From a virus, in the IMG/VR virus record IMGVR_UViG_3300000235_000024, positions 1-23,318 of that record: DNA of 23,318 nt, one strand, 5' to 3'. Positions within the stretch are counted from its first letter, which is position 1; each line of letters starts with the position of its first letter. Positions 705 through 23,318 of this stretch are shown in pieces. A model generated the notes under the pieces. That model was not told the DNA's origin and did no database searches. It saw only the letters and a program-made list of their open reading frames with translations. The translations under genes were made by a program, and so were the position numbers.

Positions 705-728
705 AAAAGGGGTAATTCCCCCTTTTTT
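703..728. terminator. Bidirectional Rho-independent terminator
   Basis: An A6-G4 / C4-T6 inverted repeat with a 6-nt loop gives a hairpin flanked by A and T runs on both strands. It lies between two convergent genes and overlaps both stop codons (TAA at 702-704 on plus, TAA at 727-729 on minus), so one element can end both transcripts. Confidence 0.9.
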
Positions 729-1344
729 ACATTACAAGCTTTTTGTACTTAGCCAATGCTAATTTTTGTTCTGTTAATCCATTTGTACCGCCGTTTATAG
801 CTTTACAAACACCAACTACGTCATCTTTTCTAGCTGGAATACCACAGCCTTTATACAACCAGTACCACACAGCACTAATTACAGCACCATTATGTGTACG
901 CACCCAATCATCAACTGTATCAATAGTTAGATTAAGCTGTTCACCACGTGAGTGTAGCCAATTTAGAAACTGTAGATACATACCTTGTCCAGTTAACTGG
1001 GTCAATCCACCTCCTCGATACTCAAATCCGTCATCATCTTGAGTTCCGTCCATTTCATTACCCATGCGTGTACCATACACTAGATTAGCAATAGCGACTT
1101 GATTTGCTGGGTGGTCTTTTGTTCGTCCGATTTTGTTTGCTAGTTCTGGTGTTACACGTTTTGGAAACATTTTTATTAATGCTTCTGCACTATAATTGAA
1201 GCTCTCGCTTAATCGCTCAAAGTCTCCCGTCTCTACTGAAAATCTAGCTAACATATGCGCTAATTCAAGCTTGTTAGTAATTCCAAATTCACCTGCTAAC
1301 TCAATTGCTTGTTGAGCGAGGGGTTTTAGTTTTGTTAAATCCAT
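727..1344 (-). CDS. GH19 chitinase-like endolysin
   Basis: A 205-aa phage lysin of the glycoside hydrolase 19 (lysozyme-like) superfamily, expected to cut the glycan strands of peptidoglycan at the end of infection. The first catalytic Glu is in LARFSVETGDF (E38 from this start). A second acidic candidate is in ERLSESFNYSAE (E47). The family signature RGGGLTQLTG lies at about 110-119, and a Trp/Tyr-rich C-terminal helix (SAVWYWLYKGCG) follows. There is no signal peptide and no separate cell-wall-binding domain, so release should need a holin. I chose the ATG at 1344 with GGAA six bases upstream; a TTG at 1356 would add four residues but has no ribosome site. The start lies 2 nt after the stop of the small lipoprotein gene, suggesting translational coupling. 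Confidence 0.9.
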   Translation of the reverse strand: MDLTKLKPLAQQAIELAGEFGITNKLELAHMLARFSVETGDFERLSESFNYSAEALIKMFPKRVTPELANKIGRTKDHPANQVAIANLVYGTRMGNEMDGTQDDDGFEYRGGGLTQLTGQGMYLQFLNWLHSRGEQLNLTIDTVDDWVRTHNGAVISAVWYWLYKGCGIPARKDDVVGVCKAINGGTNGLTEQKLALAKYKKLVM

Positions 1345-1346
1345 TT

Positions 1347-1493
1347 TTAATTCCAATTCATGTTAAAAGTAGTCTGACTCGGTGACCAATTCACACTAGC
1401 AGAGTCAGGCATTAAAGCTTGAGCATTGTAGTATCCTTGTTGCGTTGCACAACTGCACAACGCCACTACGCTAATTAATATCAGCTTTTTCAT
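1347..1493 (-). CDS. Small lipoprotein, o-spanin (Rz1)-like candidate
   Basis: A 48-aa protein beginning MKKLILISVVALCSCATQQG: basic n-region, hydrophobic h-region, then the lipobox L-C-S-C with the modified Cys at about residue 15. The mature part is only about 34 residues and Ser/Asn/Gln-rich (YYNAQALMPDSASVNWSPSQ), ending NWN. A tiny outer-membrane lipoprotein directly beside an endolysin is typical of the o-spanin of Gram-negative phages, which joins an inner-membrane i-spanin to disrupt the outer membrane. The spanin role is inferred from position and lipobox; Rz1-type proteins are usually Pro-rich and this one is not. The stop is 2 nt before the endolysin ATG and the start is 3 nt from the end of the sponge gene. 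Confidence 0.75.
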   Translation of the reverse strand: MKKLILISVVALCSCATQQGYYNAQALMPDSASVNWSPSQTTFNMNWN

Positions 1494-1495
1494 AA

Positions 1496-1723
1496 CTAAT
1501 CCTTGAATGTTAATAGTTTAACGCTTATCATTTGTGCTTGTAGAATATCATGTAGTGCCATTTGAAATAATCCAGTTTTTATTTCACTATCAGGATTTGA
1601 TTCAATTAAAATATCAATCACTTCTGCCATTTTTTGTTTAATTTGATTAATTTTATCATCACCGCTTGGATTAAAAGTTATACCTACCATTTGAGCACCA
1701 AAAGTTTTCATTGTTTCATTCAT
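1496..1723 (-). CDS. Acb2/Tad1-like cyclic-nucleotide sponge (putative anti-CBASS/anti-Thoeris)
   Basis: A 75-aa, two-helix, cytosolic protein. The pattern GITFNPSGDDKINQIKQ, then KMAEVIDILIE, then a second helix AxxxILQAQMxSVKLLT, matches what I know of the Acb2/Tad1 helical hairpin family (formerly a DUF in many phages). Such proteins form oligomers that bind and sequester cyclic di- and trinucleotide or gcADPR signals, blocking CBASS or Thoeris defence. The FNPSG motif is at 17-21, the conserved IK at 28-29, and the AQM/VK motif at 63-69. The length fits the short members. The ATG has a good AAGGAA site. It sits between the holin candidate and the lipoprotein, a location in which short members of this family are often found. 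Family call from memory of motifs, not a search; which signal it binds cannot be told. Confidence 0.72.
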   Translation of the reverse strand: MNETMKTFGAQMVGITFNPSGDDKINQIKQKMAEVIDILIESNPDSEIKTGLFQMALHDILQAQMISVKLLTFKD

Positions 1724-1759
1724 TTTATTTAATTCCTTATGTTTGTTAATATAACCATA

Positions 1760-1780
1760 CTGTTCGGGATTTTGGAACAG
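1760..1780. repeat. Inverted repeat ahead of the sponge gene
   Basis: CTGTTC / GAACAG, a perfect 6-bp inverted repeat with a 9-nt spacer, lies just after the stop of the holin candidate and upstream of the sponge gene. There is no T-run, so it is not a standard terminator. Immediately downstream on the minus strand is TGGTTATAT, a weak extended -10. It could be an operator or an mRNA hairpin; the evidence is only the symmetry. Confidence 0.4.
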
Positions 1781-1993
1781 TTAAATTTTACCGTTACCTA
1801 TTTTGTTATTAATACCAAAAAGTACACCTGATGCGGTGAATAAAGGCATAGCTTCAGCTGCTTTACCCTTCAAATACAAGTAAATAGCAAATGCACCGAC
1901 TCCAGCACCCACCCAGTTGGTAGGTGTAAATACAGCTTTAACTAACTTAACTAAACCATTGTTTAGCTCTTGTTTTACTTCATTATTAATCAC
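1781..1993 (-). CDS. Small two-TM membrane protein, holin candidate
   Basis: A 70-aa protein with an amphipathic, charged N-terminus (NNEVKQELNNGLVKLVKAV), a hydrophobic segment WVGAGVGAFAIYLYL at about 27-41, a short polar turn KGKAAEA, and a second hydrophobic segment MPLFTASGVLFGI at about 49-61. The Gly/Ala-rich segments, small size and position in the lysis cassette fit a class II-like holin that would release the signal-less endolysin. It starts with GTG at 1993, which overlaps the TAG stop of the preceding gene by one base (TAGTG), with AAGGAT upstream, so translation is probably coupled. No family-specific motif identifies it; a structural membrane protein is the alternative. Confidence 0.65.
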   Translation of the reverse strand: MINNEVKQELNNGLVKLVKAVFTPTNWVGAGVGAFAIYLYLKGKAAEAMPLFTASGVLFGINNKIGNGKI

Positions 1994-2283
1994 TATTTAT
2001 CCTTTTTTAATTGTGTTTTGATATCTGTTAAATCTGTCTGAATAGCAGTCATTTGCACCTGTAAAACAGCCCATCTTGTATCACTGTCTGTTTTTGCATG
2101 TTCCAGTGCTGTAACACGTGTATCTAGTGCTGTAACACTACTTACAATTGCAGTTGATGTCTTGTCTTGCAGTTCGTCATGAGCGTTTTTATTCGCATAC
2201 CATAAAATCCCTGTCACAGTTGCAAACGCTATACCTACAATCATTGACCAGTTGCTTGAGATTTTTTCTATTGTTTTTTCCAT
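1993..2283 (-). CDS. TM plus coiled-coil protein (i-spanin or holin candidate)
   Basis: A 96-aa protein: short cytosolic N-terminus, one TM helix (WSMIVGIAFATVTGILWYA, about 12-30), then a predicted coiled coil with heptad-like V/L/I spacing to the C-terminus (VTALDTRVTALEHAK, VLQVQMTAIQTDLTDIKTQL). A single N-terminal anchor with a periplasmic coil is the layout of Rz-type i-spanins, which would pair with the small lipoprotein nearby. Some phage holins also have one TM and a charged coil, so I leave both options open. I chose the ATG at 2283 because GAGG sits 7-8 nt upstream; the ATG at 2322 would place that site inside the gene and overlap the fibre fragment upstream. Confidence 0.65.
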   Translation of the reverse strand: MEKTIEKISSNWSMIVGIAFATVTGILWYANKNAHDELQDKTSTAIVSSVTALDTRVTALEHAKTDSDTRWAVLQVQMTAIQTDLTDIKTQLKKDK

Positions 2284-2315
2284 TTTTTGCCCTCTATCCA
2301 ATGTACCAAATATCT

Positions 2316-2669
2316 TTACCAAAAAATATCTGTAGCAGTTTCTGTTGCTTTATAACCAGTACATTCCACTTAAAAATGCCATATTCGCTAATCCAGTGTT
2401 GCTTGATGGTCGCAATCTATCATACTGTTAGAAGCGTTGATATAGCCATTTATCTTACCATTGCCGTTAGCTATTACAGGTATCATGCTATCACTACCAA
2501 ACAAAGCTGGTGTTTTTATTTTAATTGCATTATTGCAAGCGGGTGCTGGTAACTGAACTAATATATCAACATTAAAATTACTAGTGCATCTGTTGTCAAT
2601 GTTATAGTTTTTACCTTTTTCAGTAGTAACGACTGGTAGCATATATACTGATGAGTTAGTAAATGTCAT
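2316..2669 (-). pseudogene. Small fibre-like gene broken by about three 1-nt deletions
   Basis: It starts with ATG at 2669, overlapping the TAA of the preceding fibre gene (TAATG). The first 80 or so residues (MTFTNSSVYMLPVVTTEKGK to YINASNS) are beta-rich, with Asn/Ile/Thr. The annotated frame then runs into a TAG at 2388. A coherent C-terminus can be recovered only by changing frame near 2424 (to YDRLRPSSNT), again near 2402 (to AISEYGIFK), and again near 2380 (to ECTGYKATETATDIFW, stop TAA at 2316-2318). The recovered string aligns with the end of the neighbouring fibre gene (SSNTAIN-YGFFKC). Each change equals one missing base and three restore the original frame. If it is not decayed, the functional product is a protein of about 93 aa ending at 2388. 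Confidence 0.55.
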
Positions 2670-3989
2670 TAGCCAATTGTTATTTTACCTTCTTTGGTGA
2701 TTGGAACTGTAACTAATCCACCGTACGCATCACGAGTTAATAAATTAATGGCAGTGTAGGTAGTTGATGCACTATACTCATTAGGGCACTTAAAAAAGCC
2801 ATAACAATTAATCGCAGTGTTGCTGGAGCGATAAACATATTCATGATATATGATGTATGTCTATGTGGTAACTTGGCTCACTTGCGTAATGAACACCATT
2901 AAATACGCATATATTAAGAGATAAATTATTGTGCCAAGTTGTGTTAGTTGTTAATATATTAAACATACTTAACCAATCCCACTCAAGTACATACCCCCAC
3001 GCCGTTATTGCGTGTATCTTGAATAACTGCCTCATATCTACTTAATTCAGTGTTGTATCCAATACATTTTACGGTTGATAAGTAACTATTCACATTAGGT
3101 AAGTTATGATACACCCACGTTCCGCTTGTACGTTTTTTATGTAACACACTTGGTTGTGCTTGTTGATAAGTTGTTACACTGTAAACAATCATATTTAACA
3201 TTGGTTCGTACCACGCCATACAGCTATTAGTAACACTTCCGCATGGGAAATTATCATAAAGCAGGCTATAATCTACACCATTACTATAGTACCATAATTT
3301 AGCTGGTGAGCCAGACGCTTGTTGCATTACTAGCCAAACATCGCCACTTGCTGTTTTGTGATTGAATCGTACGGTTGATATGTCCACGTAGTGTTTAGCG
3401 CAGGTGTAAACGTGCATTCAACCCAATCTCTAGCGTTGCTAGTTGTGATAACTTTACATACGTTATTAGTTAATTTTAGAGTTAATGTCGCTCTCGTACC
3501 ATCTACATTATCAGCCACAGAACTACCCAATATTGACGTTCCAGCAACTACGCCACTTGGTAGTGTGGTTGGTGTGGTTGGTGCAAAATTAAAACCTAAC
3601 TCTAGTGTCGGGTCTAGGTCGATATTCTTGAATGTTAAATCGGTTTTGCCAATCTGAACTAAGTTACCAGCTTTAAAGGTAACTACGGTCGCAACTGGTG
3701 ATAGTGTGTTGGTTGCACTACCTGTGAACGAAATGCGGTTAGGGCTGTATGGCGTAACAGAACCGAATGAATTTTGTGTTTTAAGTTTATCAGAATTAAT
3801 TGATAAATTAACCAATTCAGTATTATCAACTACAACGCTCCCAACACCAGCAGAGTTAGCTTTTTGCTGGAAGCTACTATTTGAAATATTTGATAAATCT
3901 TTATCCGCTTTATTGTCCCAATATGTTTTGTTCTCTGCAATTTTTACTATGTCATTGTTGTGTTGTGTTGGGTCTTTTGCTAATGGCAT
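2669..3989 (-). pseudogene. Tail-fibre-like gene with about three frameshifts
   Basis: ATG at 3989 has AGGA seven bases upstream. The first part (MPLAKDPTQHNNDIVKIAEN, then NKTYWDNKADKDLS) resembles the N-terminus of the next upstream gene (MPLA, WD). A beta-rich Thr/Asn/Val region follows. The start frame stops at 3330, but reading on by re-using one base at the A4 run near 3354-3357 gives SITK then TASGDVWLVMQQ and WYYSNGVDYSLLYDNF. Skipping one base in the G5 run at 2994-2998 gives NNGVGYVLEWDWLSMFN. A last shift near 2846-2855 gives YHEYVYRSSNTAINCYGFFK to a C-terminus ending EGKITIG at 2669. The whole recovered product is about 440 aa. The clean coherence across three frames makes a once-intact gene near certain. 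Whether it is now dead, phase-variable or mis-sequenced is open. Confidence 0.65.
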
Positions 3990-10100: not shown

Positions 10101-10786
10101 GATAACACCCCAGTTGAACCTGCTGTATATAGCTTATCACCAAACTGGATTACGCTATACCAGTTACCAGTTGTAATATTAGTTTGTTGTAAGTCAATCC
10201 CGTTATTTGAGTAATATAAACCTTTAGCTTTCGTGGTGAATGATGTAACAGTACCTAGAGTATATGAAGATACAAAAAATCCGCTAACATTTTCACAAGG
10301 AGTCCACAACATACTAGCCAAACCTTGTGTAGGGTCATAGGCAACGTTAGTCCACTTGTTTAATCGGCTATTCCACCCCAGTATGTCGTTATTAGGGGTT
10401 GGGGTAGTTACGCTAACATCTGACATGTTATTAAGTGTTAAATTGTCCTGTAGCGGTAAATTTATCCACTGGTAGCCATTATAATACAGTACATCTTTTG
10501 GATTAGGATTAGTAATCTTAGTATCATCTAAGTTATTCACTCCTACTTTTACTTGCCCAGTCATGCCATTCACAGACTGCACCGCATAGTTTTCAAAAAA
10601 AGATTTACGTAAATTATCCACAGTTATCTGACTAGTTATACCGTTTGTTTGAATAATCATTAAATCGTTAGGTAGTGTTAGGTATGCATTAGGTAGTAAG
10701 CCTATTTGTGTGGTGCGTTGGGCTGGTGCATAAGGCTGTGTTGCTGAGCCATTATAGCCTGTAGGCTTTATGTTATCTTGTGGCAT
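7178..10786 (-). CDS. Giant tail fibre with Asp-box propeller-like region
   Basis: A 1202-aa virion fibre. The start at 10786 (MPQDNIKPTGYNGSATQPYA) is chosen over an upstream ATG at 10855, which would run into the divergent adaptor gene; AAAGGA lies about 12 nt upstream. After a Gly/Asn-rich head come fibre motifs VNGMTGQVKVGVNNLDDTKI, LYYNGYQWINL and LTLNNMSDVSV. At about 170-450 there are repeats of the Asp-box type (SSTNGITWT, TTNGVTWN, SIDGNEWA) within LYYSNNGI/WLLATS strands, suggesting a sialidase-like beta-propeller. VNGQTGVVSIALADLYGTN follows. At about 700 DSPNFTGTPTAP and TDQIATTKFV are the classic long-fibre repeat, and a second copy (TPATADKSTLLATTAYV) lies further on. The C-terminal domain carries WWGNGNVNATATTACSG and a helical end (KALYEIVSRLAQ). 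Receptor binding is inferred. Confidence 0.85.
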   Translation of the reverse strand: MPQDNIKPTGYNGSATQPYAPAQRTTQIGLLPNAYLTLPNDLMIIQTNGITSQITVDNLRKSFFENYAVQSVNGMTGQVKVGVNNLDDTKITNPNPKDVLYYNGYQWINLPLQDNLTLNNMSDVSVTTPTPNNDILGWNSRLNKWTNVAYDPTQGLASMLWTPCENVSGFFVSSYTLGTVTSFTTKAKGLYYSNNGIDLQQTNITTGNWYSVIQFGDKLYTAGSTGVLSSTNGITWTQTSETDPSCRVDMASTKKMVIIQSNGVSVMDTNGTVTKPISSGEYATSMYSGTSWLVGGTNTLAYSTNDAVSFTSIPFTGFIRDIEVFNGQWLLATSVGLFSMTTVSGTYFKIKDGDFTHVVNSAGLTLALSTGNKPIWTTNGVTWNTALNGNNLQYAMFGNGYWVAGGSDSGLWWSIDGNEWALSNQTTGTLVSASYSGTTFFALTTTGVLWSNNTVGKVLSVNGQTGVVSIALADLYGTNLANAQNNNVMTYSDSKWIPSNSLSINTLTVTDNAVFGKDVTINGNINIPNGLAILNMLTTTQVLGAFTPDLNEYSFMASAYDDNSLNKGGQFRLYPTINDDWNMGALRYYTDETTQEHIDLLFDGQKIQYKGSEIVNQDMLSGLFPTEALPNNANLDDYIKTGGFTQNTTPTGENFPILEVGTLQVIGAGGVVSQQYITSEDMYTRRTFNTEWSDWVATVSTDSPNFTGTPTAPTAIVGTDTDQIATTKFVVQSMTHAGNYYPNLISAGSDVNTSLTYTGTGGFILTKGPLVANSDKPSTFLYRPRVTINTTNQTDSNYFALIGDITNGTLLDAKFKSIISAGNISAYSLTVTNTLQVKSVTAPTVNTTNIVTSDIVTLSTNAIRIKNSTAPDPAVIQRNDGNNFWLLLTNSNQPDGDYNALRPFSIKLTNGLVTMGNGLNVTNSINTDALTVTNSANLPANTHGVTPATADKSTLLATTAYVCGAIDAYAIRNYSFAPLVMQGEPTYQETSGTNFPGDYKGHNTTGGVVWWGNGNVNATATTACSGTASFSISTYQVGNTITVECFFTGTRWNNSNNGGSAQGEVGGIVTFNALDIILPNGQSLITIWMASGGVPAVTTQGNHIVGTFTPKYGTPSTPLSIHCVAEYTNPNGGFNSGFTQIMILNIQTQAVTLSEEPLTLRRKALYEIVSRLAQKTHLYHDAVNDTYFYLQDGILVQIALPV

Positions 10787-10790
10787 GATG

Positions 10791-10799
10791 TGGTATAAT
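10791..10799 (+). promoter_or_regulatory. Extended -10 promoter for the adaptor gene
   Basis: TGGTATAAT is a perfect TGn-TATAAT extended -10 on the plus strand. It sits in the 43-bp gap between the divergent fibre and adaptor genes, about 30 nt upstream of the adaptor ATG. No convincing -35 is present. It is the only such site pointing right, matching the only rightward structural gene. Confidence 0.65.
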
Positions 10800-10829
10800 C
10801 CTTTAGATTGTTTTATAAGGTATTTTATC

Positions 10830-11864
10830 ATGAATGAAGTTATTAGCATAGACAAAATAATAAGCCATGCTGTACGGAGATGTGGCGTAACATCTCCTAC
10901 GCTAACACCTGAACAAATTGATATGGCAAAGAATAACTTACGCTTTACTTTAATGGATTTACATAACCGAGGTATCCCTATTTATCGTGTTGAGTCAACT
11001 TTTCTAGGTTTTAAGCCTTACAAGTGGGAATACACTTTACCTCAAGACGTGTATGACATTACCAACATTAACTGGCGTAGAGTATCATTTTTACCTTCTT
11101 TAGCTACTGGAGGTATTGACCCAGAATTTTTAGGTATGCAGGACTGGAACACATGGGGTGAAACTACCGATAAATTTACATTAACAACATCTCAAGTATT
11201 TTTTTATGATGGATATGGTCTTTGTTTCAAAGGTAATCAAACGGTTAGTTTCGATATTGAAAATAGTATAGATGGTATTAACTGGAATATTATCAAGTCA
11301 TACCCATTAGCTCTATATGAAGATGGGCAATGGATATGGGAAGAATTAGGTACGCCAACCGAGGGCAACCAAATAAGATTAACTCTCAAAAACGGAGATA
11401 AGATTTCTTTAAGGTTCTGGCAAATTACCCAACCAACGTCATCGTTTGAACAAGTAGTTACCAGAATGAATAGGGACGATTTCTTTAGTCAACCTCAAAA
11501 GGGGATTATCGGGTCGCCTTGGAACTGGTACTTACAAAAGACAGTTGACCCTGTGTTAATGTTGTGGCAAAGCCCTGCTGAGTCTAACGTGTTTTCTTGG
11601 ATATATCACATCTACTACATTAAAGCACCTAATTTTGATAAGCTAAGCCTACCCTCTAATATTCAAGTGCCGTTGTGGTTCGTTGATGGTATTATCTGGA
11701 AGTTAGCTAGTCGCATGGCTTGGGAATTACCTCAAATTGACCGTGCTAACATAAATCTGTTAGAGCAAAAAGCTGAACAAGCATTAAATGAAACAGAAGC
11801 TTCTAACTCTGACCTATCAGGTACTAGTCTTATTGGTAACGTGTTATCCGCATACACTAGATAG
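10830..11864 (+). CDS. gp4-like head-tail adaptor (tail accessory) protein
   Basis: A 344-aa protein. The N-terminal helical part (IISHAVRRCGVTSPTLTPEQ, IDMAKNNLRFTLMDLHNRGI) followed by YTLPQDVYDITNINWRR, and the C-terminal part (WFVDGIIWKLASRMAWEL, LLEQKAEQALNETEASNSDL) match the organisation of P22 gp4/T7 gp11-type adaptors that seal the portal and join it to the tail. Between them, about 105-195, is an inserted beta domain (SFDIENSIDGINWNIIKSYP, NQIRLTLKNGDKISLRFWQI) resembling a discoidin/jelly-roll fold, which explains why it is longer than usual gp4 proteins. The start at 10830 has AAGG upstream; an earlier ATG at 10770 lies inside the divergent fibre gene. It is the only structural gene read rightward and has its own promoter and terminator. 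Confidence 0.65.
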   Translation: MNEVISIDKIISHAVRRCGVTSPTLTPEQIDMAKNNLRFTLMDLHNRGIPIYRVESTFLGFKPYKWEYTLPQDVYDITNINWRRVSFLPSLATGGIDPEFLGMQDWNTWGETTDKFTLTTSQVFFYDGYGLCFKGNQTVSFDIENSIDGINWNIIKSYPLALYEDGQWIWEELGTPTEGNQIRLTLKNGDKISLRFWQITQPTSSFEQVVTRMNRDDFFSQPQKGIIGSPWNWYLQKTVDPVLMLWQSPAESNVFSWIYHIYYIKAPNFDKLSLPSNIQVPLWFVDGIIWKLASRMAWELPQIDRANINLLEQKAEQALNETEASNSDLSGTSLIGNVLSAYTR

Positions 11865-23236: not shown

Positions 23237-23318
23237 GTTGCTTCGTTGCTTCGTTGCTTCGTTGCTTCGTTGCTTCGTTGCTTCGTTGCTTCGTTGCTTC
23301 GTTGCTTCGTTGCTTCGT
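23237..23318 (+). repeat. Octanucleotide tandem repeat (GTTGCTTC)n
   Basis: Ten perfect copies plus two bases of GTTGCTTC, without a mismatch, running off the window edge. The plus-strand frame has no stops (period VASLLRCF), and 8 is not a multiple of 3, so changes in copy number would shift a reading frame if the array lies in a gene. Perfect identity suggests recent or ongoing slippage; an assembly artefact at a contig end is also possible. Confidence 0.95.

Follow-up and report, generated by a model that had tools for sequence, protein, structure and literature searches.

We conclude that a 75-aa minus-strand ORF in the lysis cassette of virus record IMGVR_UViG_3300000235_000024 is a genuine gene and that its product is very probably, by transitive evidence from the sequences of its relatives, a member of the Acb2/Tad1 hairpin superfamily. 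Acb2 is a protein that soaks up alarm molecules that bacteria make during infection. Homology to this superfamily is established at the level of family profiles, and the assignment of the protein itself holds because of this family-level comparison, its own Pfam score being below the curated cut-off. We favor as its probable function a hairpin-only Acb2-type sponge that takes a cyclic di- or trinucleotide ligand and acts against CBASS or cA3-dependent effectors. The stretch of DNA analyzed, here called the window, has 23,318 nucleotides and is nearly the entire 23,329-base record. The original prediction, made from the letters of the window, read the gene as a cyclic-nucleotide sponge against CBASS or Thoeris, and this interpretation is partly supported overall.

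The ORF starts with ATG, has 75 codons, and fills the minus strand exactly from 1723 to 1496; the protein sequence is MNETMKTFGAQMVGITFNPSGDDKINQIKQKMAEVIDILIESNPDSEIKTGLFQMALHDILQAQMISVKLLTFKD. No upstream start is present within its 94-codon open frame, and the ATG is preceded by a ribosome-binding site (see the table). One protein-query scan of IMG/VR recovered 18 viral relatives that align along almost the entire protein at 38-49% identity, and a scan with the family alignment pattern recovered 508. Relatives are also carried, as hypothetical proteins, by the annotated phages Enterobacter EcP1, Providencia PS3, Pasteurella Pmp11, DSL-LC05, and Flavobacterium FCV-1. Relatives of the ORF are under strong purifying selection, because pN/pS is 0.05-0.25 in pairs of close relatives. 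The ribosome-binding site, the relatives, and the purifying selection together confirm a genuine gene and rule out a chance ORF. Around the gene, matches to consensus promoters and terminators were about as numerous as in shuffled sequence. Between the holin stop codon and the acb2-like gene, the minus strand contains an inverted repeat (CTGTTC-N9-GAACAG, window 1760-1780) that the terminator scan did not call.

Features of the lysis cassette and of the acb2-like gene (window coordinates)
Feature	Position	Strand	Evidence
Membrane-anchored coiled-coil protein, spanin/haemolysin-like	1993..2322	-	phrog_1193 and phrog_736, weak Rz-like matches
Small holin-like membrane protein	1781..1993	-	Hydrophobic ORF in holin position; no family match
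Ribosome-binding site AAGGAAT	1732..1738	-	8 nt upstream of ATG of acb2-like gene
acb2-like gene, 75-aa hairpin-only cyclic-nucleotide sponge candidate	1496..1723	-	ORF; at least 508 viral relatives; PF24729/phrog_717 via relatives; hhalign to Acb2 92%
FNPSG motif, residues 17-21	1661..1675	-	F17-S20 invariant in first relative set (A1)
K29	1637..1639	-	Invariant in 50/50 relatives, outside search pattern; register from alignments
AQMISVK, residues 63-69	1517..1537	-	Q64, M65, V68, K69 invariant in 50/50; hhalign register
48-aa lipoprotein, lipobox LCSC, possible outer spanin	1347..1493	-	ORF; near-identical in L117
Endolysin	727..1356	-	phrog_181, E 1.3e-45

The only Pfam match of the protein is PF24729 (Acb2_Tad1_hairpin), in register across 51 of 58 positions, with 13.9 bits (E = 0.065) against a curated cut-off of 27. 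Relatives that are 31-47% identical to it exceed this cut-off: L003 (40.1 bits), L015 (45.7), Pmp11 (42.5), EcP1 (37.5), DSL-LC05 (40.4), and FCV-1 (51.4). Known Acb2 proteins score 71 bits (T4 Vs.4) and 66 bits (PaMx35 Acb2). Among 50 family members, 20 matched PF24729 at E = 0.01 or better and 12 matched phrog_717, which served Jenson et al. as their source of Vs.4 homologues (PMC10097602). A family HMM made without the window protein gave it 96 bits and FCV-1 58 bits, and a sub-HMM of the W-type members gave T4 Vs.4 18.2 bits, where shuffled sequences reached at most 8.5. Aligned by hhalign with eight Acb2-family proteins (T4, RB68, KpF2, fHe-Yen9-01, PaMx35, JBD67, Vibrio D305, and a Rhizobium phage), the family profile matched at 92% (E = 6e-7, score 38.5); in a control in which the Acb2 alignment columns were permuted 200 times, the best score was 20.4. 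With 98 Acb2-family proteins, the score was 40.8 (93.9%) for the family and 58.9 (97.3%) for the W-type members. Against single Acb2 sequences, hhalign aligned the last helix alone with a probability of 1-3%, which rose once a profile of multiple Acb2 proteins was used. Thus, the profile search proposed in the original prediction was positive at the level of the family, through its relatives and hhalign, and negative for the window protein alone.

An amphipathic helical hairpin that resembles Acb2 by chance would account for the sub-threshold Pfam score, and helical proteins do match spuriously: a PDB sequence search with the window protein, the family profile, and the FCV-1 relative returned designed helical repeats and unrelated proteins and no Acb2. 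An HMM of classical Acb2 proteins scored the window protein (6.8 bits) no higher than shuffles (11.1). Such a coincidence is opposed by the relatives with Pfam scores above the curated threshold and by the profile-profile alignment, which scored about double the best permuted control. Chance resemblance is largely excluded by these sequence comparisons, and we regard it as very improbable.

The 75-aa helical hairpin described in the original prediction, with FNPSG and downstream IK/AEVID and AQM-VK helices, was borne out by the ORF and by an AlphaFold2 model, which places helices at residues 8-13, 23-41, and 47-72 (mean pLDDT 93.1); IKQKMAEVID spans residues 28-37. This predicted monomer agrees in architecture with Acb2, described as a short N-terminal helix followed by two long antiparallel helices (PMC10419184), and like Acb2 (T4 Vs.4, PaMx33-PaMx35; PF24729, phrog_717) it is a stand-alone short phage protein. 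Acb2-family proteins of 74 aa are numerous, so that the short hairpin and turn lie inside the Acb2 length range. Invariant in an alignment of 50 members (A2) are G9, V13, G14, F17, N18, P19, S20, K29, Q64, M65, V68, K69, and T72. The search pattern fixes VGx[TSN]FNPS in this alignment, so the independent invariant positions are G9, K29, Q64, M65, V68, K69, and T72. FNPS is also invariant in set A1, for which relatives were gathered by six separate peptide patterns and by tblastn against annotated phages.

Foldseek comparison of the window AlphaFold2 model with the PDB returned no Acb2 among 34 matches. This negative carries weight because a control model of a classical 74-aa Acb2 found both solved Acb2 structures, 8H2J (49% identity) and T4 Vs.4 7UQ2 (24-26%). 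On these models, the predicted monomer of the window protein appears to be further from the solved Acb2s than they are from each other. The mismatch is probably due to the first long helix, which is predicted to begin 6 residues ahead of the conserved Lys rather than 10, and is preceded by the FNPSG loop. In the BFVD collection of predicted viral structures, the two best matches were both named 'Acb2/Tad1 hairpin domain-containing protein'; this is not independent support, because the first of the two is a sequence relative of the window protein.

T4 Vs.4 forms a hexamer that binds cGAMP at about 30 nM, with base stacking by Y8 and F82, polar contacts by H11, K23, and R79, and an interface that includes A66, A73, A77, and L29 (Jenson et al., PMC10097602). 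When the window AQM..VK is set on the T4 ASM..CR, the alignments give as counterparts M65 for M75, A63 for A73, A56 for A66, K69 for R79, and K29 for K23; K29 is also aligned to K26 of PaMx35 Acb2. By alignment, we propose the conserved F17 as the nearest counterpart of the base-stacking Y8. The interface residues A66, A73, and A77 correspond to A56, A63, and S67. By this alignment, a conserved aromatic, two basic residues, and Met and Ala positions are in register with Acb2. By contrast, the window protein offers no similar residue for H11, S74, or F82: the invariant Q64 stands at the position of S74, and T72, with F73 beside it, at that of F82; R79 is replaced by Lys. PaMx35 Acb2 likewise lacks F82. 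The N-terminal region also differs, being FG..VG.TFNPSGD in the window protein and IKGYxx(T/S)xEEI in Acb2. Compared residue by residue, the nucleotide pocket appears recognizable but altered relative to Vs.4.

These differences bear on which nucleotide would be bound. A sponge of the same superfamily might take another ligand, such as a cyclic trinucleotide alone or another defence-derived nucleotide, and no cGAMP-type dinucleotides. FNPS, Q64, and T72 are conserved yet unlike the pocket residues of Vs.4, and the lack of a Foldseek link to the solved Acb2s that the control matched implies that pocket geometry and ligand may differ; moreover, the dinucleotide and trinucleotide sites of Acb2 are separate (PMC12043709). 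However, the window protein does have residues that correspond to the basic positions and to one aromatic position of the dinucleotide pocket, and ligands are not distinguishable from sequence alone. We consider such a change of ligand unlikely, although it is the alternative to which we give the most weight.

The anti-Thoeris half of the original prediction did not hold. PF24729 spans both Acb2 and Tad1, and through it we found the SBSphiJ7 Tad1, which shares the hairpin domain with the window protein and has a similar last helix (AITKLEEALMWLNKRT). However, this Tad1 is a 142-aa protein with about 85 residues ahead of the hairpin, where the window ORF has only 16 ahead of FNPS. The Tad1 pocket for gcADPR is formed partly by loops of the N-terminal beta-domain (PMC12043709), and a domain of this type is absent from the 75-aa ORF, which has no upstream start to add one. 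In addition, the family HMM scored Tad1 at the level of shuffles, and the W-type HMM scored it slightly above (10.2 vs. 6.8). The anti-Thoeris reading was therefore rejected on architecture, and a protein that binds gcADPR as Tad1 does is highly unlikely.

The gene lies in a minus-strand late operon that encodes the terminase large subunit, a transglycosylase, portal, capsid, and tail proteins, with the lysis cassette last. Its predicted location between a holin candidate and the lipoprotein and endolysin genes was confirmed by the ORFs and by phrog_181. The nearest related phage found, L117 (IMGVR_UViG_3300043411_001027), has an endolysin 91% identical to that of the window and shares the spanin-like, holin, and lipoprotein genes. 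In the interval between its holin and lipoprotein genes, in place of the acb2-like gene, L117 carries a 501-aa terminase-large-subunit-like gene (1339-2844), and its possibly incomplete record of 30.6 kb yielded no acb2-like gene. DNA identity between the window and L117 is 90% and breaks off exactly at the lipoprotein ATG, base 1493. The GC content of the acb2-like gene is 28% compared to 37% for the window. This low GC content and the homology break at 1493 with another gene in the relative are consistent with an accessory gene whose slot is exchangeable.

Elsewhere, the neighbors of about 40 relatives are GroEL, GroES, PhoH, terminase, a MazG-like pyrophosphatase, and unnamed families, and no lysis family is among their 25 most frequent neighbor families. 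The PS3 homologue is flanked by internal virion genes and the DSL-LC05 homologue lies between terminase and portal; the PF24729 gene of JBD67, which comes after a capsid-like gene, is a precedent for the late region. Location in the lysis cassette is thus real for the window and is not a family trait, and varying genomic sites are a further likeness to Acb2. The proposal that the sponge is expressed together with late genes when the signal peaks is speculation, because lysis-cassette location is no family trait and the gene appears to occupy a variable slot in this phage.

The same neighborhoods were weighed for descent from the Acb2/Tad1 hairpin with a non-immune role, such as a small accessory protein of the virion or of lysis whose partner is a neighboring phage product. 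The lysis cassette of the window, the virion and terminase-portal settings in PS3 and DSL-LC05, and the weak score of the window protein alone to Acb2 are compatible with such a role. Against it, the relatives have no constant partner among their varied neighbors, and the gene is missing from the available record of the nearest related phage. We judge a non-immune role to be improbable.

The reading that we prefer remains an accessory counter-defence gene whose product would belong to the Acb2/Tad1 superfamily as a divergent form made up of the hairpin only. The protein would oligomerize through its Ala-rich long helices, possibly as a hexamer like that of T4 Vs.4 and Acb2. In paired protomers, the FNPS loop near the N terminus, K29, and the QM..VK helix near the C terminus might then enclose pockets that would capture immune signals, presumably cyclic di- or trinucleotides, without cleaving them. 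CBASS or cA3-driven NucC effectors, the putative targets, would be kept off while the phage finishes its cycle.

Among the closest known proteins are those of FNPS type in PS3, FCV-1, Pmp11, and EcP1, named as hypothetical or as 'Acb2/Tad1 hairpin domain-containing' proteins, which are direct relatives in the same alignment (35-37% identical). All four carry W after M65 (AQMW or ACMW), as does Vs.4, whereas the window protein has I, and they score 24-51 bits to PF24729 compared to its 13.9. FNPS-type relatives occur in Flavobacterium phages (146 records), including FCV-1 (2992-3216; L024), whose type bridges to classical Acb2 with its 51 bits to PF24729, and also in genomes or MAGs of Bacteroidota and Betaproteobacteria. 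This clade numbers at least 508 in IMG/VR, and at E = 0.01 Pfam misses three fifths of its 50-member sample. Published work (PMC11722364) describes Acb2 as relatively rare and confined to certain phage groups. A limited literature search turned up no paper on a tested FNPS-type member. Proteins of this kind are known already, and the FNPS clade appears to be under-annotated. A large clade that the curated model largely overlooks would extend the known reach of signal-sponging counter-defence. We raise only tentatively the idea that this clade is a widespread, largely unrecognized sponge sub-family whose altered pocket takes a signal that classical Acb2 does not; if true, Acb2-type counter-defence would be far commoner than reported. 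The compact 75-aa protein and its conserved positions make the pocket predictions directly testable.

Several observations concern other parts of the window. At the small-terminase position, 22485-22937 matches phrog_645 'Rnase E' (1.9e-12), a PHROG name that is probably misleading. The record closes, at 23237-23318, with an 8-base unit (GTTGCTTC) repeated ten times without a mismatch, which may be a genuine terminal repeat or may stem from assembly. On the plus strand, opposite to the late operon, 10770-11864 contains a 364-aa ORF with no PHROG match, the start of which overlaps the 5' end of the ORF of a 1225-aa tail protein. Finally, the minus strand at 2388-3989 has short ORFs of 219, 144, 64, and 93 aa that lie in different frames and resemble one tail-fibre-like gene split by frame shifts or assembly errors.
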